A stretch of 49,211 bases of DNA, taken from NCBI GenBank assembly GCA_016783715.1, contig JADHWA010000003.1:1-49211 (forward strand). Reading direction: 5' to 3'. The notes under the pieces were generated by a model. That model was not told the origin of the DNA. It was given only the letters and a program-made list of their open reading frames with translations, and did not search any database. The stretch comes from Candidatus Omnitrophota bacterium (GTDB taxonomy: Bacteria > Omnitrophota > Gorgyraeia > Gygaellales > Profunditerraquicolaceae). This document shows, piece by piece, positions 5,936 to 49,211 of the stretch (position 1 is the stretch's first letter; every line of letters begins with the position of its first letter). A program made the translations under genes and the position numbers.

Positions 5936-6026
5936 TTAATGAGCAGACGATTTATGGAGCACAACCTGCGACATAAATCGTAGCTGCATCCTTCGCTTAC
6001 GCTCCGTAAGCTCGGGCCTCATTTGA
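5936..6026 (-). repeat. Junction element E1 (rpmJ/rpsM): collapsed copy, left hairpin plus partial right hairpin, no middle hairpin
   Basis: TTAATGAGCAGACGATTTATGGAGCACAACCTGCGACATAAATCGTAGCTGC runs directly into CGCTTACGCTCCGTAAGCTCGGGCCTCATTTGA. Confidence 0.8.
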
Positions 6027-6140
6027 TTATCCTTGTCTTTGTTTATGTTTAGCATTAGAACAAATTACACGTACTACCCCTCTTCTTTTAATTACCTTGC
6101 ATTTATCGCACATCTTTCTAACCGACGCTTTTACCTTCAC
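6027..6140 (-). CDS. rpmJ: 50S ribosomal protein L36 (GTG start)
   Basis: Manual translation [37 protein letters not shown]; absent from the supplied ORF track. Confidence 0.95.
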
Positions 6141-6186
6141 CCCGCTCTTCCTCCTATCTTGTTCCCAACCCTCTGGAAGGGCTGGG

Positions 6187-6408
6187 TCATGATTTACCTC
6201 TAAAAGTAATCCTTCCCCTGTTCAAATCGTAGGGAGAAAGCTCTAATTTGACCTTGTCCCCCGGGAGAATCCGGATAAAATGCATCCGCATTTTCCCCGA
6301 AACATGGGCCAGGACTATATGGTCATTCTCTAACTTTACCCGAAACATCGCATTAGGCAATGCTTCAACTACGGTACCTTCTGTCTCAATTAACTCTTCT
6401 TTTGACAT
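6187..6408 (-). CDS. infA: Translation initiation factor IF-1
   Basis: Start trimmed to [24 protein letters not shown]; the 32 aa upstream in the ORF track are encoded by a repeat. Confidence 0.95.
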
Positions 6409-6421
6409 TAGAGCTCTTTCT

Positions 6422-6649
6422 TTAATGAGCGCTTGACTTACGATCCGCCGTAGGCGCAAGAGTAAGTCAATGCGCGAATTAACCCCCCACCACTTTTTGA
6501 TCAAGCTTTACAAAATAATATCTAACTATTATTGAATAATTCTAGCTTAAATATTACCAACCCCTCCACTATACAAAAAGTGGTGGGGGGTCAAATTCGG
6601 ACATATAAGTTACGTCGCTATCGCTTCCGTAACTTATGTCCTCATTTGA
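6422..6649 (-). repeat. Junction element E2 (map/infA), class A middle
   Basis: Left stem GCGCTTGACTTAC/GTAAGTCAATGCGC; middle CCCCCCACCACTTTTT...AAAAAGTGGTGGGGGG; right stem GGACATATAAGTTACG/CGTAACTTATGTCC. Confidence 0.9.
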
Positions 6650-7391
6650 CCTTAGTTAAAATCTCGGGCCCTTGTTCGGTTATGGCAACCGTATGCTCAA
6701 AATGCGCTGAAGGAAGCTTATCTCTAGCGATCGCTGTCCAGCCATTCTCCTGAATCTGGCATTCCCATGTGCCCATATTCACCATCGGCTCAATCGCAAA
6801 AACCATCCCCTTTTTTATTAAGGGCCCCTGGTTTTTAGTGCCGAAATTAGGAATCTCAGGCTCTTCATGCAAACTGCGCCCGATCCCATGGCCAACGAAC
6901 TGTCTGACTACCGAGAAACCGTTACTCTCAACATAGTTCCCAATGGCATAGGAGATATCAAATAAGCAATTCTCTGCACGGGCCTGCCTGATCCCCTCAG
7001 AGAGGGCGTTCTTGGTCACCTCAACAAGCTTCTTAACCGGACTACTTACAGCACCGACCGGCACCGTGATCGCTGCGTCCGAAAAATACCCGTTGTAATT
7101 TACCCCGAGATCCAAGCTGACAATGTCGCCATCCTTGATAACTCTGGGGCCGGGTATCCCATGGACGACCTCTTCGTTAACCGAAACACAGACACTAGCC
7201 GGAAATCCCCTATACCCTTTAAATGCCGGTATAACCTTCTGACGCCAAAGAAGATCCTCTGTCAGATTATCAATCTCTTGTGTGGTTATCCCCGGCACAA
7301 GATTCTGCCGTAGCTGCCTTAAAATAGCCGCCAAGATTCTACCGGCCTCTCTTAATGCCTTTAGATCTTCCTCGGTCTTTAAGGGTATCAT
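6642..7391 (-). CDS. map: Type I methionine aminopeptidase
   Basis: SVNEEVVHGIPG, SLDLGVNYNGYFSDAA, GHGIGRSLHEEPEIPNFG, FAIEPMVNMG; stop codon lies in element E2. Confidence 0.97.
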   Translation of the reverse strand: MIPLKTEEDLKALREAGRILAAILRQLRQNLVPGITTQEIDNLTEDLLWRQKVIPAFKGYRGFPASVCVSVNEEVVHGIPGPRVIKDGDIVSLDLGVNYNGYFSDAAITVPVGAVSSPVKKLVEVTKNALSEGIRQARAENCLFDISYAIGNYVESNGFSVVRQFVGHGIGRSLHEEPEIPNFGTKNQGPLIKKGMVFAIEPMVNMGTWECQIQENGWTAIARDKLPSAHFEHTVAITEQGPEILTKVK

Positions 7392-7392
7392 T

Positions 7393-8037
7393 CTATTTTT
7401 TTAACAAAAGAACAATCTCTTCGAGGACAGGCTCTGCGTCCCTGTCAGCATCGATTCTTTTTAAAATTCCTTGTGCGTCATAGTAGCGGATCAGCGGCGA
7501 GCTGTCATCCTTGTAAACATCCAGGCGCTTGCTTATAGTCTGGGGATTATCGTCGCTTCTCTGATAAAGACTGCCTCCGCAGTAATCGCAGATCATCTCT
7601 TGTTTAGGCGGCATATTCTTAGCATGGAAATTCCCCTGGCATTGACTGCAAACCAGGCGTCCGCTGAGCCTCTGGATTATGATCCCCTCGCTGGTATCCA
7701 GGTAGATTACATAATTAATTTTGAGTGAGTGTTCCTGCAATAGTTTATCCAGGCTCTCGGCCTGCTTTATCGTCCGCGGAAAACCATCAAGTATAAAACC
7801 GCTCTTGGCATCATCTTGAGCGATTCGCTCTGCAATCATCTTGATCACCAACTCATCCGGCACAAGCGCGCCTTTATCCATATAGCCTTTAGCCTGTTGA
7901 CCTAATTCGCTCCCCAAAGAAACGTTCTCGCGCAGCAGGTCGCCGGTAGAGATATGAAGCTGGCCGGTTCTCTTAGCTAATTTCTTTGACTGCGTACCTT
8001 TTCCCGCACCCGGAGGGCCTAACAATATAACTCTCAC
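7393..8037 (-). CDS. adk: Adenylate kinase with zinc-binding lid
   Basis: MRVILLGPPGAGKGTQ, DGFPRTIKQAE, lid CSQCQGNFH...CDYCGG. Confidence 0.97.
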   Translation of the reverse strand: MRVILLGPPGAGKGTQSKKLAKRTGQLHISTGDLLRENVSLGSELGQQAKGYMDKGALVPDELVIKMIAERIAQDDAKSGFILDGFPRTIKQAESLDKLLQEHSLKINYVIYLDTSEGIIIQRLSGRLVCSQCQGNFHAKNMPPKQEMICDYCGGSLYQRSDDNPQTISKRLDVYKDDSSPLIRYYDAQGILKRIDADRDAEPVLEEIVLLLKK

Positions 8038-8040
8038 GCC

Positions 8041-9411
8041 TTATCTTCTCCCCTTAATCTTTCCGGTTTTAACAAAACCTTCGTAGTGGTGCATTAAAAG
8101 ATGTGATTCTATCTGTTTCACCGTATCAAGCATTACCCCGACGATAATCAGGATTCCCGTACCACCAAAGAATGAAGCCACCAGATACGGAACCTTTAAC
8201 CAGGCCATAATAAAGTCAGGAAATATAGCGATAAATGCGATGAACATGGCACCGGCCAAGGTTATCCGCGTCATTACATAGTCTAGGAACTCCGAGGTGT
8301 TATTTCCCGGCCGCACCCCCGGAATAAATCCGCCGTACTTCTTCATATTCTCCGAAAGGTCTACCGGATTAAAGACAATCGCGGTATAGAAGTAACAGAA
8401 GAAGATGATCAATAGTGCATAGACCAGCGTATATAAGAGATGTCCTCTCACCAGGCTCTGCGATAGCCGCTGAAAAGCAGGATTCGGAATAAATGATGCC
8501 AGGGTCGCCGGAAATAGGATTATCGACTGCGCAAAGATGATCGCGATGACTCCTGACTGATCCACCTTTAACGGGATATAGGTACTCTGGCCGCCAAAGA
8601 TTCTCCTGCCGACTATCCTGCGCGCATACTGAACAGGGATTCTTCTTTGCCCCTGTGTAATCAGGATAACCGCAAAGACTACACCAACCAATAATCCAGC
8701 CATAATCAACAAGGTGATCGGCTGTATCTGGCGTCTGGCAGGATTAAACGGTGAAATCAGAATAATCAGCTGGCTGAATGCTGCCGGAATGCGCGAAATA
8801 ATACCGGCGGTGATTACCAGCGATATACCGTTTCCAATACCCCTCTCCTGTATCTGCTCCCCCAGCCACATGATGAAAATCGTACCGGTAGTAAGGGTGA
8901 GTACGGTTAAGATCCTGAAACCCCACCCCGGACTCATAACTATCTGCAACCCCTCAAACCTGCTGGGATCCTCAAGCCAAAGAGCAATAAAAAAAGACTG
9001 GATAATCGACAGCACTACCGTACCGTAGCGCGTATACTGATTTATCTTCTGATGCCCAACTTTTCCTTCCTTGGATAGCTTCTCCAGGGCCGGGATCACC
9101 GCAGTCAATAGCTGCATGATGATCGAGGCGGAGATATAGGGCATAATCCCCAGGGCGAAGATAGTTAATCTCTCTAATGCGCCTCCGGAGAACATGTTTA
9201 CTATCCCAAAGAGCGCCCCAGCCTGCGTCTGGGAGACCCGGCTAAAAAACTCAGCCAGTGCCGCTCCGTTAATGCCGGGAGTCGGGATATAACAGCCAAT
9301 ACGATAAATTATCAATAACCCTGCGGTAATCAACAGACGCCGCTTAAGGTCAGGTATCTTAAAGGAATTAACTAACGGTGAAAAATTTAAAATCTCAGCT
9401 AGTGACCGCAT
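8041..9411 (-). CDS. secY: Preprotein translocase subunit SecY
   Basis: 456 aa multi-spanning protein; ALGIMPYISASIIMQLL, RRIPVQYARR, SFFGGTGILIIVGVMLDT. Confidence 0.97.
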   Translation of the reverse strand: MRSLAEILNFSPLVNSFKIPDLKRRLLITAGLLIIYRIGCYIPTPGINGAALAEFFSRVSQTQAGALFGIVNMFSGGALERLTIFALGIMPYISASIIMQLLTAVIPALEKLSKEGKVGHQKINQYTRYGTVVLSIIQSFFIALWLEDPSRFEGLQIVMSPGWGFRILTVLTLTTGTIFIMWLGEQIQERGIGNGISLVITAGIISRIPAAFSQLIILISPFNPARRQIQPITLLIMAGLLVGVVFAVILITQGQRRIPVQYARRIVGRRIFGGQSTYIPLKVDQSGVIAIIFAQSIILFPATLASFIPNPAFQRLSQSLVRGHLLYTLVYALLIIFFCYFYTAIVFNPVDLSENMKKYGGFIPGVRPGNNTSEFLDYVMTRITLAGAMFIAFIAIFPDFIMAWLKVPYLVASFFGGTGILIIVGVMLDTVKQIESHLLMHHYEGFVKTGKIKGRR

Positions 9412-9958
9412 CTTTTATGTTGACTATCTTTCCGCCTGCTCCCTCTAACTTTTTCACCGCTGCTTTAGAGAAGGCATGGGCTTGCACGGTTAGGGGGGAT
9501 TTAACCTCGCCCTCTCCCAGAATCTTTACCGGCCTGGTTTTATCCTTTATTAACCCCTTGGTTTCCAGCAGATCGGGGTTTATACTCTCCTGTTTTACCC
9601 GGACTAAATCCTTTAAGTTGACAATCTGATATTTGTCCCTTACCCTGCCGGAGAAGCCGCGCTTTGGTATCCTGCGAATCAAAGGACTGGTTCCCCCTTC
9701 AAAACCAAGATAGAAACCATGACCACTGCGTGAGGTCTGCCCCTTGCTTCCGCGCGTAGATGTTCCTCCATGGCCGGACCCGGAACCTCGACCCAAAATT
9801 CTCTTTCGCTTATGCGCGCCTCGGGGGATAACCAGATTATGCAGCCCCATGCGCAGCTCTTTTTTAACCCGATCCGCGCTCTTCAATTTTTTTGCCGCCT
9901 TTTTTATCTTCGGCGCAAGAAACGCTGGCTTACTCTTTTTTAGAATCTTCTTTCGCAT
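9395..9958 (-). CDS. rplO: 50S ribosomal protein L15 (start uncertain; [17 protein letters not shown] at ~9850 is an alternative)
   Basis: [31 protein letters not shown]. Confidence 0.93.
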
Positions 9959-10427
9959 CTTTCCCTACTTCTTTCCCTACCTTAAGATTTCTTAGTCCTT
10001 CTGCGGTGGCCCGAATCACATTAATCGGATTATTAGATTTAAGACATTTTGTCAGTATATTTTTAATCCCGGCGGCCTCACAAACTGCGCGTACCGGGCC
10101 AGCGGCAATTACTCCTGTACCTTCGGAAGCCGGCTTAAGTAAAACTTTAGCTGCTCCATATCGGCCGATAATCTCATGGGCTATTGTCGTGCCCTCTAAA
10201 GGCACCTTAAATAAACTCTTCTTTGCGCGGCCGAGGCTCTTACGAATAGCTTCGGCGACTTCATTGGCCTTACCCAGGGCAAAGCCTACATGGCCCTTGG
10301 TATCACCCACAACCACCAGGGCGCTGAAATGCATTTTCTTACCGCCCTTAGTAACCTTGGTGACACGGTTAATCGCAATCACTTTTTCGATCAGTTCTGG
10401 CTGCTTCTCAATATTAAATTCTGGCAT
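9930..10427 (-). CDS. rpsE: 30S ribosomal protein S5
   Basis: [27 protein letters not shown]. Confidence 0.96.
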
Positions 10428-10428
10428 C

Positions 10429-10797
10429 TTAAAACTCCAATCCCCCTTTTCTCAGAGCATCTGCGAAGGCCTTGACCCTGCCGTGATACAGGTAGCCGGC
10501 CCGATCAAAAACTATTCTGCTAAACCCTTTTGCTTTAAGCTTGGTGCTGAATATCTCGCCTAAAGCGGCAGCTGCCTTAATGTTCCCTCCGGAGTGTACT
10601 TTCTGTTTTATCTCTTTGGAGGTCGTGGAAAGTGAAAATAGGCATCTAGCGGCCGTATCATCAATCACTTCGCCATGAAAATGCTTCAGACTACGCCGAA
10701 TCACCAACCTTGGCCGCTGGGCATCACCCCGCATACGGGTTTTAATCCTTTTGTGCCTCTTGATTCTTAACGCGATTTTTTTACTAATCTTGCTCAC
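10429..10797 (-). CDS. rplR: 50S ribosomal protein L18
   Basis: [46 protein letters not shown]. Confidence 0.95.
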
Positions 10798-10812
10798 TTT
10801 AATTTCCTTAGG

Positions 10813-11358
10813 CTACTTAGCGGTTGCCTGGGCCTTGCCGACCTTCTTCTTTACATGTTCACCCAGGTAACGGATCCCCTTACCCTTATACGGCTCAGGA
10901 GGACATACCGCTCGTATCTCGGCAGCAGTCCCCCCAACCTTCTCCTTATCTATCCCGGTAACAACCAACTGGTTCTGTTTCGGGGCTTCTATCTTTATGC
11001 CTTCAGGGATTGGAAAACTTACCGGATGGGAATACCCTAAATTCATATTCAAGGTCTCCCCCTGTACTTGAACCTTGTAGCCGGTGCCAATAACTTCCAA
11101 TTCCTTCTTATACCCCTGATCTACGCCGAAGACCATATTATAAATCAAGGCCCGGGAAAGGCCGTGCATTGATTTATCCCTCTTTGAATCAGCACATCGC
11201 GTAACTATAACCTGATTATCCTTGACTTCAGACTTGATCCGCGGTGATAACGTATATGATAACTTTCCCTTAGGCCCCTCCACCAGGACAACGCCATCTT
11301 TGACCTGGACTTTGACTCCTTTGGGGATCTCGATTGGTTTTTTTCCGACTAAAGACAT
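10813..11358 (-). CDS. rplF: 50S ribosomal protein L6
   Basis: MSLVGKKPIEIPKGVKV; PEPYKGKGIRYLGEHVKKKVGK. Confidence 0.97.
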   Translation of the reverse strand: MSLVGKKPIEIPKGVKVQVKDGVVLVEGPKGKLSYTLSPRIKSEVKDNQVIVTRCADSKRDKSMHGLSRALIYNMVFGVDQGYKKELEVIGTGYKVQVQGETLNMNLGYSHPVSFPIPEGIKIEAPKQNQLVVTGIDKEKVGGTAAEIRAVCPPEPYKGKGIRYLGEHVKKKVGKAQATAK

Positions 11359-11371
11359 AGCGATTTAGCTC

Positions 11372-11767
11372 CTACCATATGTACATTAAGACCTCGCCGC
11401 CTACTCCCTTTTCGCGCGCCTGGTTATCCGTAACCAACCCGGCTGAGGTCGAAATAATCGCCAGGCCCTTACCCCGCAAAACTCTTGGGATCTCTTCTTT
11501 GTTTACGTATACCCGCAGTCCCGGGCGGGAGATCCGCTTTAGATTTATAATCGCCGGTTTACCGGAAATATATTTTAAATATACTTTCAGCCTTCCCTGC
11601 TTTTTATCTTCAATAGATTTAAATGTATCGATATACTCTTCTTTCTGCAAGATCTCCAATATGGACTTAATGATCTTGGAGGCCGGCATATCAACGCTCT
11701 CCTTCTTTACCATTGAGCCGTTACGAATTATGGTTAAGGCATCTGCAATCGGATCTGTTAGCGCCAT
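11372..11767 (-). CDS. rpsH: 30S ribosomal protein S8
   Basis: MALTDPIADALTIIRNGSMVKK; C-terminus KGVGGEVLMYIW. Confidence 0.97.
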   Translation of the reverse strand: MALTDPIADALTIIRNGSMVKKESVDMPASKIIKSILEILQKEEYIDTFKSIEDKKQGRLKVYLKYISGKPAIINLKRISRPGLRVYVNKEEIPRVLRGKGLAIISTSAGLVTDNQAREKGVGGEVLMYIW

Positions 11768-11781
11768 CTTCTCTCCTTAAA

Positions 11782-11967
11782 TTACCAGCTAGCTTTCTTT
11801 ACTCCTGGAATCATCCCCTGCCAAGCCAGCTCCCTAAAGCAGATACGGCAGAGCTGAAATCTGCGCAAATATCCACCTGAACGCCCGCAGATAGGGCAAC
11901 GATTATAGTTACGCGAAGAAAACTTAGTTTTCCTCTTCCATCTTGCTATCTGTGACTTCTTGGCCAT
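11782..11967 (-). CDS. rpsN: 30S ribosomal protein S14 (zinc-ribbon type)
   Basis: 61 aa; [32 protein letters not shown]. Confidence 0.96.
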
Positions 11968-11969
11968 CT

Positions 11970-12216
11970 TTAATGAGCAGACCCAGCCCTTGCATGCAAG
12001 GGCGGGGTAGCTGCTTCGTTAAGTTTGTCTCCAGTGTCTGCGAATTGAACCCCCCACCACTTTTTGACAAAACTTTTAAATAAAATCTACTTCGTTTATT
12101 TTGCCACTTCGCGCACATATCTTACTACCACCCCACTCTCCAAAAAAGTGGTGCGGGGTCAAATTCGGCATCGAGCTTACGTTCATTATCATTCCGTAAG
12201 TTCGTGCCTCATTTGA
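11970..12216 (-). repeat. Junction element E3 (rplE/rpsN), class A middle
   Basis: TTAATGAGCAGAC...GTCTGCGAATT; inner palindrome GCCCTTGCATGCAAGGGC; middle CCCCCCACCACTTTTT...AAAAAGTGGTGCGGGG; right stem GGCATCGAGCTTACG/CGTAAGTTCGTGCC. Confidence 0.88.
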
Positions 12217-12758
12217 AACGGCATGCCGAAAAGCTTCAGCAACTCTCTGGAATATCCCGGTGTTTTAGAGTTTTTAATCACAAAACTTATATCCATACCC
12301 TGTGCACGACCGATCTTATCGTATTCGATCTCAGAGAATATACTCTGATCCGCTAAACCAAGCGTATAATTACCCGCCTTATCAAAGGACTTAATAGAGA
12401 TTCCTCTAAAATCTCTGATCCTGGGCATGGCTATGTTGATCAGACGATCCATAAACTCATACATTATCTTGCTGCGCAGGGTAACCTTACAGCCTACCGG
12501 ATGGTTCTCTCTTACTTTAAAGTTAGATATCGCCTTTTTTGCTCTTCTGATTATCGGCTTCTGACCCGTAATCAGGCCCAGCTCTACCATGGCCTTATCC
12601 AATACCTTAACATCATCCAAGGCTTCCCCTACCCCCATGTTGATTACAATCTTCTCCAGATGCGGAACAGCCAGATTATTCTTGATGGCAAATTTCTTCC
12701 TCATCTGGGGGATTATTTCTTTATTATATCTTTCTAATAATCTCGGAGTCGTGGCCAT
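12189..12758 (-). CDS. rplE: 50S ribosomal protein L5, C-terminal tail encoded inside E3
   Basis: MATTPRLLERYNKEIIPQMRKKF; ends LFGMPFQMRHELTE*. Confidence 0.96.
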   Translation of the reverse strand: MATTPRLLERYNKEIIPQMRKKFAIKNNLAVPHLEKIVINMGVGEALDDVKVLDKAMVELGLITGQKPIIRRAKKAISNFKVRENHPVGCKVTLRSKIMYEFMDRLINIAMPRIRDFRGISIKSFDKAGNYTLGLADQSIFSEIEYDKIGRAQGMDISFVIKNSKTPGYSRELLKLFGMPFQMRHELTE

Positions 12759-13069
12759 TAAATTACCTCTTTACAGGTTTTACAGATTCTCTCTTTTTGC
12801 TTCTTTCCGGCAACTACGAATCCAGAGCGTTTTGGGGCATTGCACTGTTTGCAGATAAGCATCAGATTGCTGATCTGAAGCGGTGCTTCCACTGATACTA
12901 TCCCGCCCTGTTGATCAGTCTGAGTCCTGCGCTTGTGCTTCTTTAGCATATTTACCCCTTCAACCAGGGCACGGTTCTCTTCGGCAAATACGGCTAATAT
13001 TTTCCCGCGTTTACCGTTATCTTTACCTTTTGTCACCTGCACTGTATCGCCTTTTCTTATCTTTAGCAT
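12758..13069 (-). CDS. rplX: 50S ribosomal protein L24
   Basis: KIRKGDTVQVTKGKDNGKRGKIL; VEGVNMLKKHKR. Confidence 0.96.
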   Translation of the reverse strand: MLKIRKGDTVQVTKGKDNGKRGKILAVFAEENRALVEGVNMLKKHKRRTQTDQQGGIVSVEAPLQISNLMLICKQCNAPKRSGFVVAGKKQKERICKTCKEVI

Positions 13070-13071
13070 AT

Positions 13072-13440
13072 CTATATAACCTCTGGGGCCAGTGAAATTA
13101 TCTTGGTAAAATTCCTCTCTCTTAACTCTCTTGCCACCGGACCAAATACGCGCGTACCCCTTGGATTCAACTGAGCATCGATAAAAACTATGGCATTACG
13201 GTCAAAGCGCAAAATTGAGCCGTCCTCCCGGCGAATCGCCTGGCGCGTACGTACAACTACGGCCTTTGCTACTTCACCCTTCTTGACTGTGGCATCGTGA
13301 GAAGCCTCTTTGACGTTGACGTTGATAATGTCGCCTATTACGGCAAAGAAGCAGTTCTTTTTACCTAAGACCGAAATCATTGCCGCTCTTTTGGCTCCGG
13401 TATTATCAGCGATATCCAGAATTGATCTTAATTGAATCAT
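13072..13440 (-). CDS. rplN: 50S ribosomal protein L14
   Basis: [50 protein letters not shown]. Confidence 0.97.
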
Positions 13441-13443
13441 AAT

Positions 13444-13912: not shown

Positions 13913-13925
13913 CCTTTACTCTCTC

Positions 13926-14071
13926 TTATAATTCTCACGTATAATAATATTGAATTATAAGTGATTACACAGATTTATTTAGATTACACAGATAAAGTCT
14001 TAATCGGTGTAATCTTTTCTTTAATAATCTTTTCAATCAGGCATCCTGCTTATCCTTACTAGGGATGCCTA
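13926..14071 (-). repeat. Second-family three-hairpin element, copy A (rplP/rpmC)
   Basis: TTATAATTC...GAATTATAA; GATTACACAGATAAAGTCTTAATCGGTGTAATC; GGCATCC...GGGATGCC next to the rplP TAG. Confidence 0.75.
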
Positions 14072-14485: not shown

Positions 14486-14488
14486 TTT

Positions 14489-15187: not shown

Positions 15188-15202
15188 ATTATTTATCCTT
15201 AT

Positions 15203-15541
15203 TTAGACTTTGTTCTTAATATCCAATTCAATCTTTATATGCGAGGTTCTCTTTTTTATCCCGGCAGCCCTTCCGAAAGCACGCGCCCTATACCTCTTCC
15301 ATGCCGGTCCGCCGTCACAAACTATTCTAGATATATACAGCTGCTCAGCATTAAAACCTTTGACCTTGGCGTTGGCGATTGCGGATCTGAGTATCTTAAT
15401 CAGGAATTCTTTAGGCCTTCTATTTATATGAACCAGGATCACCTCGGCTTCTCTGGCGTCCTTATCTCTGATTAGATCACAGACCTGTCTTACCTTGGTC
15501 GGTGAGATCCTTACAAATTTTGATGATGCCTGTGCTATCAT
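15203..15541 (-). CDS. rplV: 50S ribosomal protein L22
   Basis: FVRISPTKVRQVCDLIRDKDA; RYRARAFGRAAGIKKRTSHI. Confidence 0.96.
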   Translation of the reverse strand: MIAQASSKFVRISPTKVRQVCDLIRDKDAREAEVILVHINRRPKEFLIKILRSAIANAKVKGFNAEQLYISRIVCDGGPAWKRYRARAFGRAAGIKKRTSHIKIELDIKNKV

Positions 15542-15737
15542 TTTAATGAGCAGACGACTTTCGGAACGACAGTGACGTAAGTCGTAGGCCGTAAGGCCGT
15601 CTGCGAATTAACCCTTGACATTTACCTAAATTTATTTGCTTTAGGAAGATGTCAAGGGTAAGTTCGGACATATAAGTTATGTCGCTTTCGGTCTTCAAAT
15701 TTATAATATTCAGCTCCATAACTTATGTCCTCACTTA
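15542..15737 (-). repeat. Junction element E4 (rpsS/rplV), class B middle
   Basis: GCAGAC...GTCTGCGAATT; middle ACCCTTGACAT (15611-15621)/ATGTCAAGGGT (15649-15659); right stem GGACATATAAGTTATG/CATAACTTATGTCC. Confidence 0.9.
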
Positions 15738-16025: not shown

Positions 16026-16027
16026 TT

Positions 16028-16861: not shown

Positions 16862-16869
16862 AATTCTTC

Positions 16870-18457: not shown

Positions 18458-18657
18458 TTTAAATGAGCAGACGATTTATGGAGCACAACCTGCGACATAA
18501 ATCGTAGCTGCTTCCTTTTTTCTTATCTGTCAGCGTCTGCGAATTTACCCTTGACATCTACTTTAATTAATTTGTTTTAGGTAAATGTCAAGGGTAAGTT
18601 CGTACATATGAGTTATGTCACCTCCTATGTCGGCGACATAACTCATGTACTCACTTA
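18458..18657 (-). repeat. Junction element E5 (rpsJ/rplC), class B middle
   Basis: GCAGACGATTTATG/CATAAATC...GTCTGCGAATT; middle ACCCTTGACAT (18547-18557)/ATGTCAAGGGT (18585-18595); right stem GTACATATGAGTTATGTC/GACATAACTCATGTAC. Confidence 0.9.
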
Positions 18658-18954
18658 CTTAATCTCCACATCCACTCCAGCAGGAAGATTGAGTTTCCTT
18701 AAGGAATCGATGGTTTTGGATGTGGGCTCGAATATATCAATCAAACGTTTGTGAGTTACCAGATCAAACTGCTCACGGGATTTTTTATCAATTACCGGAG
18801 AACGTAACACCGTGTAGACCTCCCGTTTTGACGGCAAAGGAACCGGCCCGGAGATACGCGCACCGGTGCGTTTGACCGTATCTACGATCTCCGTGACCGC
18901 TTGATCTAATAAACGATGATCGTGTGCCTTTAATTTTATGCGAATTTTTTGCAT
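18655..18954 (-). CDS. rpsJ: 30S ribosomal protein S10
   Basis: Start trimmed to [46 protein letters not shown]. Confidence 0.96.
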
Positions 18955-19169
18955 ATTAATGAGCAGACGATTTATGGAGCGCATCCTGCGACATAAATCG
19001 TAGCTGTATCCTTTTTCCTTATCTGTCAGCGTCTGCGAATTAACCCCGCACCTTTTATTTATTCATAAATTTAGGTATTTTTTGAATACCTAAAAAGGTG
19101 CGGGGTAAGTTCGGACTTTATAAGTTATGTTTCCGCCTACGGCGGATCCATAACTTATGTCCTCACTTA
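18955..19169 (-). repeat. Junction element E6 (tuf/rpsJ), class C middle
   Basis: GCAGACGATTTATG...CATAAATC...GTCTGCGAATT; middle CCCCGCACCTTTT...AAAAGGTGCGGGG; right hairpin GGAC..TATAAGTTATG/CATAACTTATGTCC. Confidence 0.9.
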
Positions 19170-22989: not shown

Positions 22990-23233
22990 ATTAAATGAGC
23001 ACATAACTTACGAACACGTAGTGCGAGTAAGTTATTGTGCGAGTTTAACCCCCCACCACTTTTTGATAAAGTTTTATAAAATTATATCCTGTACTACCGC
23101 TCACTTCACAGCTAAATTTTACCGCCCCTCCACTATACAAAAAGTGGTGGGGGGTGAGTTCGGACAAATAAGTTATGTCGCTTCTATGATCTGAATTTAA
23201 AATATGCTGCTCCATAACTTATGTCCTCACTTA
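22990..23233 (-). repeat. Junction element E7 (rpsL/rpsG), class A middle
   Basis: Left stem GCACATAACTTAC/GTAAGTTATTGTGC; middle TIRs 23049-23064 and 23139-23154; right stem GGACAAATAAGTTATG/CATAACTTATGTCC; ends in the rpsL TAA. Confidence 0.93.
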
Positions 23234-27657: not shown

Positions 27658-27899
27658 ATTTAATGAGCGCATAACTTACGATCCGCCGTAGGCGCAAGAG
27701 TAAGTTATTGCGCGAATTTAACCCCCCACCACTTTTTGATAAAGTTTTATAAAATTATATCCTGTACTACCACTCACTTCACAGCTAAATTTTACCGCCC
27801 CTCCACTATACAAAAAGTGGTGGGGGGTGAGTTCGACCAGATAAGTTATGTCGTTTCTATCATTCTTGAATACAGCTCCATAACTTATGGTCTCACTCA
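27658..27899 (-). repeat. Junction element E8 (rpoB/rpoC), class A middle
   Basis: Left stem GCGCATAACTTAC/GTAAGTTATTGCGC; middle TIRs 27722-27737 and 27812-27827; right stem GACCAGATAAGTTATG/CATAACTTATGGTC; ends in the rpoB TGA. Confidence 0.93.
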
Positions 27900-33622: not shown

Positions 33623-33853
33623 ATTAAATGAGCCCACAACTTACGGAACGACAGTAAACGTAAGTTGTCTGGGCGAATTTAACCCCCCACCACTTTTCTA
33701 TAAAGCTTTTTAATTTTATTCTCCGATTTTGCCAAATGCTTCACGATTAATTTTTACCACCCATCCACGATACAAAAAGTGGTGGGGGGTAAGTTCGGTC
33801 ATATAACTTAGCTTCTCCGCCTGCGGCGGATCGCTAAGTTATGACCTCACTTA
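33623..33853 (-). repeat. Junction element E9 (nusG/rplK), class A middle
   Basis: Left stem GCCCACAACTTACG/CGTAAGTTGTCTGGGC; CCCCCCACCACTTTT...AAAAGTGGTGGGGGG; right stem GGTCATATAACTTAGC/GCTAAGTTATGACC; ends in the nusG TAA. Confidence 0.92.
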
Positions 33854-34378: not shown

Positions 34379-34383
34379 AATAG

Positions 34384-34575: not shown

Positions 34576-34602
34576 TATTTTTGTATTTTAGCCGTAACCA
34601 AC

Positions 34603-34648
34603 AGGAGCGGCAGGGCTGCGAACCTGTCGTTCGCTTTCGCTCACTCCT
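34603..34648 (-). pseudogene. Reduced tRNA-Trp-like copy 1 (46 nt)
   Basis: Minus strand AGGAGTGAGCGAAAGCGAACGACAGGTTCGCAGCCCTGCCGCTCCT: 5' and 3' acceptor arms and T-arm kept. Confidence 0.7.
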
Positions 34649-34801
34649 CATAGGGAAAACCGTTTGGTTTTCCCTCCATGACGCTCTCCGCCTTCGGCGG
34701 ATCGCTGTCACCCTTTCCTCCGCAAATTATCAAATATTCTTAAGGGGAAAACAATCTTTTCCCCTTAATAATCCCCTTTTTAGGTTCTCGCCGTAACCAA
34801 C

Positions 34802-34854
34802 AGGAGCGGCAGGGCTCGAACCTGTCGTGCCCCTTATTCGGCGGGGTCACTCCT
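34802..34854 (-). pseudogene. Reduced tRNA-Trp-like copy 2 (53 nt)
   Basis: Minus strand AGGAGTGACCCCGCCGAATAAGGGGCACGACAGGTTCGAGCCCTGCCGCTCCT: acceptor stem, one central hairpin, T-arm. Confidence 0.72.
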
Positions 34855-35005
34855 CATAGGGAAAACCCGTTTGGTTTTCCCTTATGACGCCCCTCATCTT
34901 TTACGCTGGGCTGTCACCCTTTCCTTCGCATCTTTTCAATTTTCCTTAAGGGGAAAACAATCTTTTCCCCTTAAGAACCCCTTTCGAGGTTCTCCCCGTA
35001 ACCAA

Positions 35006-35076
35006 CAGGAGCGGCAGGGCTCGAACCTGCAGTCACGGTTTTGGAGACCGTTGGTTTGCCATTAACCGACGCTCCT
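35006..35076 (-). tRNA. tRNA-Trp (CCA)
   Basis: AGGAGCG acceptor pairs CGCTCCT; anticodon arm ACGGT-CTCCAAA-ACCGT; T-loop TTCGAGC. Confidence 0.95.
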
Positions 35077-35265
35077 ATTTTTATCGAGCAGATAACTTAC
35101 GGAGCGATGCGTCGTAAGTTATAACTGCTTCATATCTTATTAGCAGTGTCTGCGAGCTAACCCCGCACCCAGTCTAGTATCTACTACTACTTGTTTGGGT
35201 GCGGGGTAAATTCTGACAGAGACTTATGTTCTCCGTCCTCGGCGGATCCATAAGTCTCGTCATCA
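35077..35265 (-). repeat. Junction element E10 (rpmG/tRNA-Trp), class D middle
   Basis: GAGCAGATAACTTACGG...CGTAAGTTAT...GTCTGCGAG; CCCCGCACCC (35161-35170)/GGGTGCGGGG (35197-35206); right stem TGACAGAGACTTATG/CATAAGTCTCGTCA. Confidence 0.88.
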
Positions 35266-35412
35266 TTTAATTTCTTTATGCGCAGAATGCTTGCGGCAGA
35301 ACCTACAATATTTGGAGAGTTCCAGTCTGTCCTGATGCAATCGCTTATTTTTGGTTGTAGTATAATTCCTGTTTTTACAAACCGTACATTCTAACGTAAT
35401 TAATTCCCGCAT
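35263..35412 (-). CDS. rpmG: 50S ribosomal protein L33 (zinc-ribbon type)
   Basis: Manual translation [49 protein letters not shown]; not in the ORF track; stop TGA lies in E10. Confidence 0.95.
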
Positions 35413-40608: not shown

Positions 40609-40615
40609 TGAAGAT

Positions 40616-42814: not shown

Positions 42815-42820
42815 TACCTT

Positions 42821-43114
42821 TTATGAAGATTGCACTGATTGTGTTTTCTTTAAATAGGCGATGCAATTCTTATCGATCTCAACTTTTACATTGTCGTCAA
42901 TACGCAGAGTCAGGGTCTTATCTTTTAAGTTGACGATTGTACCATGAATTCCGCTGGACGTCACTACTTCATCATTCTTATTGAGTTTACCAAGCATAGC
43001 CTTGTGATCTTTTTCTTTACGTTTCTGCGGACGAATCAGCAAAAAATAAAAAATAACAAAGATGAAAATAAGCGGAAATAAACTTACTATTGGATTTCCT
43101 TGTGCTGTTGGCAT
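42821..43114 (-). CDS. yajC: Preprotein translocase subunit YajC
   Basis: FYFLLIRPQKRKEKDHKAMLGKLNKNDEVVTSSGIHGTI. Confidence 0.95.
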   Translation of the reverse strand: MPTAQGNPIVSLFPLIFIFVIFYFLLIRPQKRKEKDHKAMLGKLNKNDEVVTSSGIHGTIVNLKDKTLTLRIDDNVKVEIDKNCIAYLKKTQSVQSS

Positions 43115-43124
43115 CTTTCTCTCC

Positions 43125-43270
43125 TTTAAATGAGCCTCGCCTTATGCGTGGGGCTAATCCTTCGATTCACTTGGCTCGCTCAGGATGGTGAGCGAGGGCT
43201 GTTACGTCTGTCCGAATCGAACCATTTATCCCGAGTGCCGCCATATTGGCCGGACCAGGGATCTTAATTA
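43125..43270 (-). repeat. Degenerate junction element E11 (rpsP/yajC)
   Basis: Starts TTTAAATGAGCCTCGCC as in the family and keeps GTCTGTCCGAATCGAACC, but middle and right hairpins are not recognisable. Confidence 0.45.
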
Positions 43271-43273
43271 GTC

Positions 43274-43519
43274 TTATCCTGTCTTAGCTAACTTCTTCAC
43301 CAGACTCTTTACTGTTTCTGACGGCTGGGCCCCCTTACTCTTCCAATGATCAAAACGCTCTTTTTTTATACTGGCCTCCCCGGTAATAGGATTATATGTG
43401 CCTATCTCTTCGATAAAACTGCTGTCTCTGCCTGCAGTTCTCTCGCAGACACAGATCCGGAAATACGGCTTTTTTTTGGGATTCTTCCCAACTCGCCTTA
43501 AACGTATACGAACTGCCAT
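43274..43519 (-). CDS. rpsP: 30S ribosomal protein S16
   Basis: MAVRIRLRRVGKNPKKKPYFRICVCERTAGRDSSFIEEIGTYNPI. Confidence 0.96.
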   Translation of the reverse strand: MAVRIRLRRVGKNPKKKPYFRICVCERTAGRDSSFIEEIGTYNPITGEASIKKERFDHWKSKGAQPSETVKSLVKKLAKTG

Positions 43520-43532
43520 TTCTTGTTCCTCC

Positions 43533-43758
43533 TTTAATGAGCGCATATTTTACGGAAGCTCCTTTAGGAGCAACGTAAAATATAGCTTCTTTTGTTTACT
43601 AATCTATCAGCGTGCGCGAATTAAACCCCCCACCACTTTTTAATCTAACTACCTTGTGTATAAAACCACTTACCACTTTTTCTCCAAAAAGTGGTGGGGG
43701 GTCAAGTTCCCCCGCACCCAGTCTAGTATCTACGCTACTTGTTTGGGTGCGGGGTCAC
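43533..43758 (-). repeat. Chimeric junction element E12 (trpE/rpsP): class A and class D middles in tandem, right hairpin missing
   Basis: GCGCATATTTTACG...CGTAAAATAT...GTGCGCGAATT; CCCCCCACCACTTTTT...AAAAAGTGGTGGGGGG then CCCCGCACCC (43710-43719)/GGGTGCGGGG (43745-43754). Confidence 0.88.
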
Positions 43759-45255
43759 TTGACGTATAGCCTCAAACAAGGCCTTTGCCTTATTGACGGT
43801 TTCAAGATATTCCTTATTGGGCAGAGAATCCGCCACAATTCCCGCCCCTGCCTGAATATAGGCGACTCCCCCTTTGATCACTATCGTCCTTATGGTAATA
43901 CAGGTATCCATATTATGAGAGAAACTAAAATAACCCACACAGCCCGCATAGGGGCCACGGCGTAGATTCTCTAACTCATCTATGATCTCCATGGCGCGGA
44001 TCTTTGGACTGCCGCTGACTGTCCCTGCGGGAAAGCCAGCCCTCAAGACCTCATATACATCTAGATTATCCTGCAACCTCCCTCTGACCTCAGTCACCAG
44101 ATGCATTACATGGGAGTATTTTTCTACGTTCATAAACTCACTTAGCTTGACAGTCCCGGGCTTACAGACCCGGCCTAAATCATTCCTTCCGAGATCAACC
44201 AGCATTATGTGCTCTGCTCTCTCCTTTGAGTCATGCAAGAGCTCCTTCTCAAGCCGCAGATCCTCAGCCTGATTCCGCCCCCGTGGCCGCGTGCCGGCAA
44301 TCGGCCTGGTCCTAACCACCCCTTCCTCACAACGCACCAGCATCTCAGGAGATGACCCGACTAAATAAAAACCCTTAAACTTCAAGAAATACATATAGGG
44401 CGAGGGATTGAGGCTGCGCAGAGCCCGATAGATATCAAAAGGCTCTCCGGTAATTTTCGCAGAGAACCGCTGCGAGAGAACAGTCTGGATAATATCACCT
44501 TTTCTTATGAAAACCTTTGCCTTCTTAATAATCTCCTGAAATTCACTCCTTTTAAAGTTAGAGTTGATTCTTATTTTATTCGATTTGCCGCTTTTTTGCT
44601 TAACAAGGGTAATCTCTCCTTTAAGCTGAGCCTGGATATCCTTGATCTTCCCAAGGGCCTGCCTATAAAGCCTGCGTTTGGACTTCTGTGATAGGGCCGC
44701 CTTCTTTGGCTCCGGGAGGATGACATTTGTGACGATCTTTATAGTATGATTTATATGATCAAAGACCAGAATAGTATCGGTAAGCATAAATACCGAATCA
44801 GGCAGCCTTAAATCATCCCGGTTTTTATCGGGGATATCTTCAAAGAACCTGATCAGGTCATAACCGGCAAAACCTACCAGGCCGCCGTAAAACCGAGGAA
44901 GCCCCTTTATCGGAACCGCCTTGAACCTCTGCATAATCTTTTTTATCTCCTGCAGCGGGTCGCTCTTGGTTATAAAACGGCGGACACTCTTCCTGCTAAA
45001 ATCCCTGATCTCGATATTTCTTGCCTTACTGCGTATGACCAACGAAGGATTAGCCCCCAGGAATGAAAATTTGGCGATATTCTCCTGGCCTTCAACCGAT
45101 TCTAAGAGAAAGGAGTACTCGCCTTTTTTGATCTTTAAAAACGCAGATACCGGTGTATCCAGGTCGGCATTGATCTGGCCGTAGACCGGAATCACATTCC
45201 CTTTTTTGGTAAGTTTTAAAAACTCTTCTTCTGATGGATAATAAGAATTTCTCAT
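43735..45255 (-). CDS. trpE: Anthranilate synthase component I
   Basis: PYMYFLKFKGFYLVGSSPEMLVRCE, RTRPIAGTRPRG, HIMLVDLGRNDLGRVC, PAGTVSGSPKIRAMEII. Confidence 0.96.
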   Translation of the reverse strand: MRNSYYPSEEEFLKLTKKGNVIPVYGQINADLDTPVSAFLKIKKGEYSFLLESVEGQENIAKFSFLGANPSLVIRSKARNIEIRDFSRKSVRRFITKSDPLQEIKKIMQRFKAVPIKGLPRFYGGLVGFAGYDLIRFFEDIPDKNRDDLRLPDSVFMLTDTILVFDHINHTIKIVTNVILPEPKKAALSQKSKRRLYRQALGKIKDIQAQLKGEITLVKQKSGKSNKIRINSNFKRSEFQEIIKKAKVFIRKGDIIQTVLSQRFSAKITGEPFDIYRALRSLNPSPYMYFLKFKGFYLVGSSPEMLVRCEEGVVRTRPIAGTRPRGRNQAEDLRLEKELLHDSKERAEHIMLVDLGRNDLGRVCKPGTVKLSEFMNVEKYSHVMHLVTEVRGRLQDNLDVYEVLRAGFPAGTVSGSPKIRAMEIIDELENLRRGPYAGCVGYFSFSHNMDTCITIRTIVIKGGVAYIQAGAGIVADSLPNKEYLETVNKAKALFEAIRQVTPHPNK

Positions 45256-45590
45256 TACTTGATTAACCTGTAAAAACAGCTGCGATTACCCGTATGACAG
45301 GCTACCCCACTCTGGCGCACACTGATAAGCAGCGCATCCATATCGCAGTCGTATCTAACCTGCTTGACAAACTGAAAATTTCCCGAAGTTGCCCCCTTCA
45401 CCCAATACTGGCGGCGGGATCGCGACCAAAAAACAGTTTTTTTGAGCCTGAGTGTACGCTTCAGGGATTCCTTATTCATATAGGCTAGCATCAATACTTC
45501 TTTGCTCTTATAATCCTGGATGACCGCCGGAACCAACCCCTTGCGGTCATACTTTATTAAATTTGCATCGAATTTCTTTGTCTTTTTCAT
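45255..45590 (-). CDS. hisI: Phosphoribosyl-AMP cyclohydrolase
   Basis: [66 protein letters not shown]. Confidence 0.96.
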
Positions 45591-46342
45591 AATCTAACCG
45601 GCACTCCTTTATCCTTTAGGTAATCCTTTACCTGTTTAACCGAAAGCTCCTGGTAGTGAAATACCGAAGCAGCCAGAGCTGCATCAGCGCCAGATCTAGC
45701 GAAGACCTCATAAAAATGCTCTAGCCTACCTGCTCCTCCGGAGGCAATCACCGGAATCCCTACAGCAGTACTGATTGTCTTTGTCAATTCAAGGTCATAA
45801 CCGTCTTTTGTGCCGTCATAATCCATGCTGGTCAAGAGGATCTCTCCGGCCCCTAATCCGGCAACCTGCTTCGACCATTCTACGGCATCCAGGTCCACCG
45901 GAGTCCTGCCGCCGTTAATATAAACTTTCCAGCCATCTGCCTCTTTTTTGACATCAATAGCAACCACGATACACTGGCTGCCGAACTTAAGGCTAGCCCT
46001 GCTTATAAGCTCAGGCAACTTCACTGCCGCAGTATTAATTGAAACTTTATCCGCTCCGGCATTTAAGAGATCCCTGATATCTGAGATATTTCTCACCCCG
46101 CCGCCTACGGTAAAAGGCATGTAGATATTCACCGCGATCGCCTCTACCAGACCTATCAGCGTAGATCTGTTTTCGTAGCTGGCGGTGATATCTAAAAATA
46201 CTAACTCGTCTGCCTTCTGCTGATCATAGATCCTGGCCACCTCTACCGGGTCGCCGGCATCACGCAGACCTAAAAACTTTACACCTTTTACCACCCGGCC
46301 CTCTTTAATGTCCAGGCAGGGGATTATACGCTTGGTAAGCAT
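45587..46342 (-). CDS. hisF: Imidazole glycerol phosphate synthase subunit HisF
   Basis: [36 protein letters not shown]. Confidence 0.97.
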
Positions 46343-46346
46343 GCTT

Positions 46347-46781
46347 TTACTTTACGGGCTTCTCTAAAAACACCTGAAGCAGTCCCCAGGTTTCTTTGCC
46401 AGCTTTCCCGTCAACCTTCAGATCATTAGCCTTCTGAAAGGCCCGGACAGCCTCTTTGGTTCTTTGGCCCATTTTACCGTCAATCTTCCCCGGGTCAAAG
46501 CCGGCACTACTTAAAGCCATCTGAATATCTTTTGTCGATGGCTTAGGACTCTCTAACTTCGGACTCTTCTTTGCTTGCTTCTGATTAAGTTCCCAGATTA
46601 CATCCTTTAGATCAGATATCTCATCATCTTTAAGCTCGACCTGCGATTCAAGGAGCGAAATCTGATCTCTTAGCCCCTGCACCTGTAAATCGTCACCTTT
46701 CTTAGTTGATGTGGCGCAGCCACCAAGAACAAAAACAAACCCGACTAACAACAATAGCACAAAAATTCTTTTTATATACAT
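46347..46781 (-). CDS. Predicted lipoprotein with coiled coil and peptidoglycan-binding (PG_binding_1-like) domain
   Basis: Lipobox FVLGGCATS; heptad-rich segment; [51 protein letters not shown]. Confidence 0.85.
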
Positions 46782-47521
46782 ACTCCCTCTCCTTTCTTAG
46801 TTCCGCCGATCTTCAGCGCTGCACTCAATGTAAACTTCCCTTCGTATAAGGCCTTGCCGACAATTACTCCGGTTAGACCCTCTTTCTCCAGAACCTTAAG
46901 CCGCCTTAGGTCCTGCAGGCAAGATACCCCCCCTGAGGCGATAACCTTCATGGTGCTTATCTTAAGCAGTTTTTTTAGCTCTCTTATGCTCGGGCCTTTT
47001 AAGGTTCCGTCTTTGGAGATATCCGTATAGATAACCTCTCTGAAACCGTTATTCTCCAATGAAGCAGCAAACTCCGAAGTCCTTATCCGCCGGCCGGAAC
47101 TCTTCCAGCCCTTGGTCATCAATATGTCATTCTTGACATCAATGCTGACAATGACCTTGCCTCTAAATTCTCTGGACACCTTCTCCAGAAACGCCTGATC
47201 CTGGATAGCCCTGGTGCCCAAGACTACCCGCCGCACTCCAAACCCTAGAACCTTTCTTATCATCCCAATACTTCTTAGGCCTCCGCCGAACTGTACCGGG
47301 ATATCAATATTTTGGGCAATCTGCTTTACTATCTTTAAGTTTTTTGGCACCCCTTGAATTGCCCCATTCAGGTCAACCAGGTGAATTAGCCCAGCGCCCT
47401 GGCTTACCCAATCCCTGGCAGTCTTTAGAGCATCCCGGGAGTAGACCCTCTGATCTCTCTCTCCCTGGACAAGCCGCACGACCAAGCCATCTCTTAAATC
47501 AATAGCAGGAATTATCAGCAT
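46772..47521 (-). CDS. hisA: Phosphoribosylformimino-5-aminoimidazole carboxamide ribotide isomerase
   Basis: MLIIPAIDLRDGLVVRLVQGERDQRVYSRD; VQFGGGLRS; VIASGGVS. Confidence 0.96.
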   Translation of the reverse strand: MLIIPAIDLRDGLVVRLVQGERDQRVYSRDALKTARDWVSQGAGLIHLVDLNGAIQGVPKNLKIVKQIAQNIDIPVQFGGGLRSIGMIRKVLGFGVRRVVLGTRAIQDQAFLEKVSREFRGKVIVSIDVKNDILMTKGWKSSGRRIRTSEFAASLENNGFREVIYTDISKDGTLKGPSIRELKKLLKISTMKVIASGGVSCLQDLRRLKVLEKEGLTGVIVGKALYEGKFTLSAALKIGGTKKGEGVCI

Positions 47522-48141
47522 AGCTCTACAAAGTTTTTTAAAATCGCCAGACCCTCTTCCTGGCTCTTCTCCGGATGGAACTGAACCCCATAGAGGTTAT
47601 CTTTGGAAACAACAGCAGCAAATTCAAAACCATATTCGCAGGTGGCCTCAATCGTCTTTTTATCCGCCGGAGCCACATAATAAGAGTGACAGAAATATAC
47701 ACAGGGATCAGCCGCCAGGCCTCTTAAAAGAGGGCAATCTGACTCCCGAGTTGAAGGCTTGGTGATTTTAAGTTGATTCCACCCTATGTGGGGGATTTTT
47801 TTAACCTGACGGGGATCAAAACGCCTAACCTCCCCTGCAAACAGGCCTAACCCCTTCTCCTGCCTGGCTTCCTGACTTCTCTCAAAGAGCAGCTGCATCC
47901 CCAGACAGATCCCCAAAAGGGTCCTTTTACTGTTTAGTTCCTGCTTCAGGAAAGTATCGAACCCCTTCTTCTTCAACTCCAAGATAGCATCATCAAAAGC
48001 GCCTACCCCGGGAAGGACTATCTTATCCCCATCTTTCAACTTTTTAGGGGAGGAAATTACAGAAGTCTCCTGGCCAAAAGACTCCAGGGCCTTCTGTACG
48101 CTGTGAATATTCCCCATTCCATAGTCAATAATCGCGATCAT
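47515..48141 (-). CDS. hisH: Imidazole glycerol phosphate synthase subunit HisH
   Basis: MIAIIDYGMGNIHSVQKALE; LLGICLGMQLLFERSQE; GVQFHPEKSQEEGL. Confidence 0.96.
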   Translation of the reverse strand: MIAIIDYGMGNIHSVQKALESFGQETSVISSPKKLKDGDKIVLPGVGAFDDAILELKKKGFDTFLKQELNSKRTLLGICLGMQLLFERSQEARQEKGLGLFAGEVRRFDPRQVKKIPHIGWNQLKITKPSTRESDCPLLRGLAADPCVYFCHSYYVAPADKKTIEATCEYGFEFAAVVSKDNLYGVQFHPEKSQEEGLAILKNFVELC

Positions 48142-48338
48142 TTTAATGAGCAGACGACTTACGGAACGACAGTGACGTAAGTCGTAGGCCGTAAGGCCGT
48201 CTACGAATTAACCCCGCCCTTTTGGCAGGGTAGCTTATTTAAATTATATCCCCGCCAAAAGAGCGGGAAAAGTTCGGACATATAAGTTATGTCGTCAAAA
48301 TTATTAATATATTGTTCCATAACTTATGTCCTCACTTA
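48142..48338 (-). repeat. Junction element E13 (hisB/hisH), class E middle
   Basis: GCAGACGACTTACGGAACGACAGTGACGTAAGTCG...GTCTACGAATT; imperfect CCCCGCCCTTTTGGC...GCCAAAAGAGCGGG; right stem GGACATATAAGTTATG/CATAACTTATGTCC; ends in the hisB TAA. Confidence 0.88.
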
Positions 48339-48947
48339 ATCAATCAAACCTTTTGTTGAAGGGATACCTTTACGGCGGGCATCTATCTGCGTGGCCTGGT
48401 CAAGAGCCTTGCCAAAAGCCTTAAATACAGGCTCAAGGTTTGTGTGCAGGTCAGTATTGGCGCCTGAGATTTTTATATTTAGGTTCATCCCTAATTTATT
48501 AGCAAAGGACTCAAAGAAATGGTTGGCATATTCCAGATTATATCCGAACTCATCTCTATCAATAACTGAACCAACCGGCCTTTCTATCTCTTTAAAGAAA
48601 GCTCTGCCGCTTAAGTCAAGAACGACATTAGCTACCACATCCTCCATAGGGAATGAAGCTGACCCGCTGCGCTTAATGCCTAATTTATCTGTTAAGGCAT
48701 CCTTGAATGCCTCCCCTAAGACAAGCCCGATATCTTCATTTGTATGATGCATATCGACCTTTGCAGTATCCCCCTTGGCCTTCAGCTCTAAATCAAACAA
48801 CCCGTGAAAAGCAAATAGCTCCAGCATATGGTTCAGGAGCCCGATCGGAGTATCTATCTTAGACTTACCTTCTCCGTCAACAGTTAACTTAACCGTTATA
48901 TTGGTTTCGGTAGTCTTACGGGATTTCGTAGCAACTCTCTTTTTCAT
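48336..48947 (-). CDS. hisB: Imidazoleglycerol-phosphate dehydratase
   Basis: TPIGLLNHMLELFAFHGLFDL; DMHHTNEDIGLVLGEAFKDAL; HFFESFANKLGMNL. Confidence 0.96.
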   Translation of the reverse strand: MKKRVATKSRKTTETNITVKLTVDGEGKSKIDTPIGLLNHMLELFAFHGLFDLELKAKGDTAKVDMHHTNEDIGLVLGEAFKDALTDKLGIKRSGSASFPMEDVVANVVLDLSGRAFFKEIERPVGSVIDRDEFGYNLEYANHFFESFANKLGMNLNIKISGANTDLHTNLEPVFKAFGKALDQATQIDARRKGIPSTKGLID

Positions 48948-48959
48948 AGTGATTACCCC

Positions 48960-49211
48960 TTTAATGAGCGCATAACTTAGCGAAGCTAAATTATAGCGTC
49001 TATGGTTTTACATGTCGATCAGCGTGCGCTAATTACACCCCCCACCACTTTTTAATAAAAGTCTAAAATAAAATTAACGGTATAACTAACCATTCTTTAC
49101 TTAAATCCCCCAACCCACTCTTTCTCTAAAAAGTGGTGGGGGGTAAATTCGGACACGGCTTTTTTGCCAATAGCTTACGTCATTTCATTCCGTAAACTAT
49201 GTCCTCATTTA
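48960..49211 (-). repeat. Junction element E14 upstream of hisB, class A middle; runs to window end
   Basis: TTAATGAGCGCATAACTTAG...GTGCGCTAATT; CCCCCCACCACTTTTT...AAAAAGTGGTGGGGGG; TTCGGACA...TGTCCTCATTTA. Confidence 0.85.

Follow-up and report, generated by a model that had tools for sequence, protein, structure and literature searches.

A three-hairpin repeat family placed between stop codons and ribosome-binding sites in Omnitrophota genomes

INTRODUCTION

Essential operons of small genomes are expected to purge mobile DNA. How the operons on a 49,211-nucleotide stretch of a Candidatus Omnitrophota genome (contig JADHWA010000003.1; hereafter the window) can carry a similar palindromic repeat at one gene junction after another is the question addressed here. 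The window is contig C39 of a metagenome-assembled genome (MAG) of 716,592 bases and 65% completeness, and over most of its length the genes lie on the minus strand. The closest relatives of its rplC belong to Candidatus Omnitrophota, at 62–67% identity. The repeat is an element of ∼150–260 bp that consists, in the order of the mRNA, of a hairpin R, a central hairpin C and a hairpin L. The explanation that we favour, at a probability of about 0.72, is that it represents a phylum-wide family of non-autonomous mobile elements, confined mainly to gaps between a stop codon and the next Shine–Dalgarno (SD) sequence or start codon, fixed in their R-to-L orientation and presumably passed by ribosomes. 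The family, its spread, its placement, its recent gain and loss and its copying within a genome are demonstrated at the level of sequence comparison.

RESULTS

Detection and spread

The original prediction, made from the letters of the window, described about 14 copies of a recurrent hairpin repeat, numbered E1–E14. A covariance model trained on 14 hairpin units from the window (R1) confirmed that the repeat is real, with 25 unit matches there at E ≤ 1, 24 of which have E ≤ 0.013, as did the tag-pair counts given below. Scanning for extra copies, the check proposed with the prediction, returned 79 units in the whole MAG (0.72 Mb; reading of this genome was limited to loci around the matches) and many more in relatives: 37 at S10-region loci of other Omnitrophota and 54 in G184, a single-contig genome from another family. 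R1-positive genomes number 97 of 117 within the order and 64 of 107 in a phylum-wide sample, and none of seven outgroup genomes from other phyla had a match. Since the window holds 25 of the 79 MAG units in 7% of the genome, the ribosomal and his/trp operons are enriched; the downstream genes scanned elsewhere are housekeeping genes. An Rfam scan of the window at the gathering threshold recovered two tRNAs only and left the repeat unmatched, the family is undescribed in the Omnitrophota literature that was searched, and an exact 19-mer of R had zero matches among viral contigs, which is a weak test. As far as Rfam and the searched literature go, the repeat belongs to no described family, although a precedent for its placement exists in the MIRUs discussed below.

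Placement at gene junctions

Exact placement of the element at gene junctions, which had also been predicted, is the main finding. Among 59 clusters of units in the MAG, 48 lie in tandem gaps, six are divergent, four are at contig edges and one is nominally convergent; this sole convergent call rests on a spurious open reading frame (ORF), and no genuine convergent gap is occupied in the MAG. Orientation is constant relative to the mRNA, with R first and L last. R starts at the stop codon of the upstream gene or ∼6 nt after a −10-like box, and ahead of first genes it lies just past a −35/−10-like pair (C21, C24, C30 and C40; promoters judged by eye). The far end of L meets the SD (CTCATTAAGGAGG) or, where there is no SD, lies 0–4 nt ahead of the ATG. 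The further claim that the repeat fills most long junctions of the window needs narrowing, as the rpmC/rplP gap (13913–14068) is not filled by it. Its occupant is another repeat, of the ATTACACAGATTT type.

Architecture

A full copy reads, on the mRNA strand, stop UAA, GUGAG, R, CGAACUUA, a long C, UUAAUUCG, L, CUCAUUAA and then the SD or AUG, and terminal inverted repeats are present at its ends (TAAGTGAG.../...CTCATTA). R and L are one unit in opposite orientations, xTGAG-stem-CGAAx, in which the bases outside TGAG pair with those inside CGAA and a GA/GA mismatch lies between. The predicted layout and inverted homology of the two hairpins are borne out by the sequence, by R1 and by the tag-pair counts: the own-genome loci contain 62 instances of TGAG..CGAA with a paired stem, compared with 0–6 for each of nine unrelated tag pairs tried in an identical geometry, and 59 of the reverse-complement reading TTCG..CTCA. 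Other details were too narrow as first described. The outer end CTCACTTA is present, but so are CTCATTTGA and CTCATTTA, the base outside TGAG co-varying with the base inside CGAA; and the central hairpin, although present, is one of several interchangeable palindromes (ACCCCCCACCACTTTTT, CCCTTGACA, CCCCGCACC and others), some of which stand alone in relatives.

Two-sided compensatory changes are found in 12 of the 18 pairs in an alignment of 14 units. Over the nine outer pairs of 131 units (∼1180 pair cells), ∼96% are Watson–Crick, with G·U occurring 7 times on the mRNA strand against 13 for A·C. RNA-level selection, as judged by a G·U excess, was rejected, because G·U does not exceed A·C. The pairing pattern does not look like the outcome of long-standing selection on an RNA fold, and fits young DNA palindromes that would be kept perfect through spreading or arm-copying.

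Filled and empty sites

Genomes G078 and G083 belong to the same genus, with flank identities of ∼80–94%. For 11 elements of G078 both flanks are found in G083, where eight of the elements are absent, mostly cleanly, and three have collapsed to a remnant; several G078 elements are absent in G046 too. The cleanest empty sites are gyrB/gyrA (TATATAAAATG when empty versus TATATAA[..]TAAATG when filled), groES/groEL in comparison with G046 (TCAAATAAGGAG versus TCAAGTAA[..]TAAAGGAG) and a TAG/ATG seam (TTAGATG versus TTAG[..]ATG). TAA, a candidate target-site duplication, flanks both ends at most of the compared sites, the groEL, gyrA and tuf cases among them, but does not at the TTAG/ATG seam. Locus L033 contains near-identical copies at fusA/tuf and rpsJ/rplC, with few differences by eye, and E7 and E8 of the window share 95% identity across 166 nt; therefore, copying between unrelated sites happens. 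As judged from these comparisons, the repeat family is mobile or dispersing. Two observations weigh against the explanation that we favour: other short spacers occupy some of the empty sites, which leaves the exact target duplication tentative, and no mobilising gene or autonomous ORF-bearing copy was noticed, although no systematic search was made.

A short ORF in R

When units are typed as R or L by gene context, GAGG is present in 51 of 73 R units versus 1 of 89 L units, ATG in 52/73 versus 20/89, and GAGG separated by 9 nt from ATG in 38/73 versus 1/89. The distance from the ATG to the 3′ arm, modulo 3, is distributed 34:9:8 in R (in phase in 34 of 51; p = 1.2e-6) and 6:7:7 in L (6 of 20). 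In-frame stops within the loop are rare, at 12 of 508 codons compared with 43 of 474 and 53 of 465 in the other frames (96/939 jointly). Its translation is M-E-x-Y-I-..-D-I-T-Y-x-S-E-L. In E4, and at L033, L048, L226, L299 and L307, the frame extends as far as the TAA in CTCATTAA or CTCATTTAA, which directly abuts the following SD or ATG. E8 has lost the usual phase through an indel, but the same frame is regained, over 60 codons, from an ATG that overlaps the rpoB stop. The proposal that R carries the SD and ATG of a frame-kept short ORF is supported statistically, and suggests, with moderate support, a translated-spacer mode resembling that of mycobacterial MIRUs.

Several points weigh against a translated spacer. 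Codon-position diversity in the loop is flat (0.40, 0.37 and 0.35), with no third-position excess, and therefore the peptide itself is not conserved; peptide conservation was rejected on the ground that the codon positions are equally variable. The p-value for phase is optimistic because related copies are not independent, and by distinct lengths nine are in phase versus eight out. The ATG is absent or the frame broken in many copies (E2, E6 and E9), and subfamily ancestry could be the source of the differences between R and L.

DISCUSSION

Mechanism of tolerance

We propose that the elements insert, or outlast insertion, only in the transcribed gap directly upstream of a gene, bounded by the previous stop codon or a likely transcription start on one side and by the next SD, start codon or tRNA on the other. 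Tolerance would result from ribosome passage, either through translation of the short ORF, which would span all three hairpins and end in a stop directly at the next SD or ATG, or because the folded spacer would hold stop and start close together. The first route would amount to a relay, in which ribosomes, offered an SD and start after the stop, would read a meaningless ORF through three hairpins that would otherwise block them and terminate at the TAA abutting the next SD or start; operon coupling would stay intact, and even ribosomal-protein operons would be open to the element. We hold this relay tentatively, at somewhat less than even odds. Ribosomes may alternatively cross by pure termination–reinitiation over the folded spacer, with no short ORF, but leader copies without an SD (L171) are inexplicable by coupling.

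The repeat occupies S10, spc, rpoBC, groE, gyrBA and comparable seams phylum-wide, with turnover between sister species, and the natural pairs of filled and empty sites could be used for testing how ribosomes pass from cistron to cistron. If the translated-spacer reading is true, a mobile element can go unnoticed by the translation machinery, and the Omnitrophota would provide a second, independent instance of the behaviour of mycobacterial MIRUs.

Alternative explanations

The rival that survives best is a structured mRNA element for operon segmentation, in which R would guard the upstream 3′ end, an RNase III-type cut would fall in C and L would guard the downstream 5′ end, the whole being kept for its function and not by spread. 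Stop-to-SD placement on the transcribed strand, the long perfect duplex of C and the preference for housekeeping and ribosomal operons are consistent with such a role, and RNase III is known to cleave the RNA of NEMIS, itself a mobile repeat (PMC2229807). However, the junction sets vary among species, even sister species, the G·U and A·C counts lack the signature of an RNA-level constraint, and the tag is conserved on opposite strands in R and L, pointing to a constraint on the DNA. We consider segmentation rather unlikely.

The prediction had also likened the repeat to BIMEs of REP sequences or to MITEs. The likeness holds as to kind, in that paired inverted hairpins spread as non-autonomous DNA, but the loci tested gave no sign of the implied link to RAYT/Y1 transposases. 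As a BIME proper, the element would be an inverted pair of REPs mobilised by a RAYT (Y1 HUH), with its intergenic bias due to selection alone and no role for translation. This is what the inverted paired hairpins, the conserved foot tetranucleotides TGAG/CGAA and the many intergenic copies would lead one to expect, and RAYT/Y1 genes are common in the order (97 of 117 genomes). However, R1 gave zero matches at 40 RAYT loci of related genomes; the RAYTs of G078 and G083 (L186 and L208) sit between different palindromes, AGGGACGTCTTT..AAAGACGTCCCT, which are probably their own REP family; and a Y1 gene was undetected in the unit-rich genomes G060 (98% completeness), G055, G059, G080 and G085. The PF01797 search and flank reading gave no support to a RAYT as mobiliser, and this candidate was rejected. 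REPs are found preferentially 3′ of genes and in convergent gaps (PMC3733652), whereas the Omnitrophota elements stand 5′ of genes and flush on both sides. Likewise, REP super-families are defined by a GTAG or CGTC foot (PMC3733652), and the alignment consensus here is TGAG..CGAA. A BIME in the strict sense is, in our judgement, improbable. Less probable still is neutral hairpin debris, left by snap-back synthesis or template switching and tolerated nowhere but in stop-to-SD gaps, with no dedicated mobilisation. This reading would suit the many unrelated palindromes at S10/spc junctions of other Omnitrophota, the nearly all Watson–Crick stems that arm-copying predicts despite sequence variety and the collapsed hybrids E1 and L266, but not the homology of unrelated-site copies over 100–170 bp in fixed order and orientation, nor the phylum-wide commonness of the TGAG/CGAA tag, GAGG and ATG.

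Relation to known repeat families

On the best reading of the tests made, the mobile three-hairpin family is nearest in site, and probably in logic, to mycobacterial MIRUs and nearest in form to BIME/ERIC-type repeats, and is a member of none of these. MIRUs are small, apparently mobile repeats that insert at start codons; the ORF inside them is coupled to the gene there and likely limits the impact of insertion (PMC12548453). The Omnitrophota element shares with them insertion at operon stop–start junctions in a fixed orientation, but it occurs in another phylum, has three stable hairpins, inverted R/L ends and TGAG/CGAA tags, and keeps its ORF in part of the copies only, with an SD often included. 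REP/BIME/REPIN sequences are similar in being short palindromes with conserved feet, often in inverted pairs, intergenic and in high copy; the Omnitrophota element differs in its tag (TGAG/CGAA and not GTAG/CGTC), in that no RAYT association was found, in its position 5′ of genes and flush to stop and SD, in its extra central hairpin and in its larger size. ERIC, NEMIS/Correia, RUP and YPAL are likewise non-autonomous palindromes of ∼100–200 bp in transcribed intergenic DNA, YPAL with comparable filled/empty site evidence, and the RNA structures of MITE-like repeats affect mRNA (PMC2229807). No sequence shared with these families was recognised in a comparison by eye only, and the Omnitrophota element differs from them in its TAA instead of TA flanks, its fixed orientation and flush fit, and its short ORF with an SD of its own.

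Copies in the window and neighbouring sequences

A recognisable copy or remnant stands at 13 of the 14 predicted places, and E11 is doubtful; all are described here on the minus strand. The copy between map and infA (E2, 6421–6651) comprises R (6592–6648), C and L (6422–6482), with R1 scores of 70.5 and 64.6 bits and support from its fold. E4 (rpsS/rplV, 15541–15737) contains R (15659–15737), a C of the TTGACA type and L (15543–15611; 69.9 and 31.3 bits), and its short ORF of 58 codons (15543–15719) has an SD-like GAGG 9 nt before the ATG and stops at CTCATTAA, directly before the rplV ATG. E5 (rpsJ/rplC, 18459–18657; R 18595–18657, 70.1 bits) has a frame of 27 codons (18646–18563), and in E6 (tuf/rpsJ, 18954–19169; R 19106–19169, 73.0 bits) R starts at the tuf stop codon. 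E7 (rpsL/rpsG, 22990–23233; R 23155–23233, L 22992–23047) has a short ORF of 56 codons (23215–23045). In E8 (rpoB/rpoC, 27658–27899), R (27828–27899) begins at the rpoB stop, which is TGA and not TAA, and the inner strand of R is changed to match (TGAGT/ACTCA); its ORF (27900–27718) overlaps that stop as ATGA. E9 (nusG/rplK, 33623–33853) consists of R (33790–33853) and L (33625–33681), scoring 67.3 and 72.0 bits, and E13 (hisB/hisH, 48141–48338) of R (48269–48338, from the hisB stop) and L (48143–48211), scoring 64.4 and 32.9 bits, with an ORF of 39 codons (48320–48201). E10 (rpmG/tRNA-Trp, 35080–35269; R 35207–35269, L 35081–35135) approaches the tRNA gene to within 4 nt.

At E3 (rplE/rpsN, 11969–12217; identified by sequence, R1 57.5 bits), rplE runs into R (12160–12215) and stops inside it, gaining a new C-terminus, ..GMPFQMRHELTE, which is consistent with insertion at the 3′ end of the gene. 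The remaining copies are altered, incomplete or, in one case, doubtful. E1 (rpmJ/rpsM, 5935–6033) is collapsed, the 5′ half of R being joined to the 3′ half of L (R1 22 bits on the plus strand), and its frame of 28 codons (6022–5936) stops at the TAA of the element. E11 (rpsP/yajC, 43124–43270) has no R1 match and is clear only at its L-type end, CTCATTTAAAGGAG. E12 (trpE/rpsP, 43533–43765) keeps L (23.6 bits), and its R is replaced by a CCCCGCACCC palindrome that retains the GA/GA mismatches. E14, upstream of hisB (48959–49211; 28.2 bits), comprises L, C and a partial R, the contig end cutting the copy.

Downstream of the intact tRNA-Trp, at 34577–35077, two extra copies of its 3′ part (CCGTAACCAACAGGAGCGGCAGGGCT) stand ∼205 nt apart with hairpin-rich DNA between them, an arrangement that looks as if insertions had recurred at the 3′ end of a tRNA. 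At locus L155 (2083–2440, minus strand), a double R-type/C insert between the promoter and the intact tRNA-Glu gene is bracketed by duplicates of the initial 15 nt of that tRNA (GGCCCCATCGTCTAG). At L037, L039, L040 and L075, S10/spc seams of other Omnitrophota hold different giant palindromes, some of them perfectly flush from stop to start (TGATCCCCCCACC..GGTGGGGGGATG at L075).

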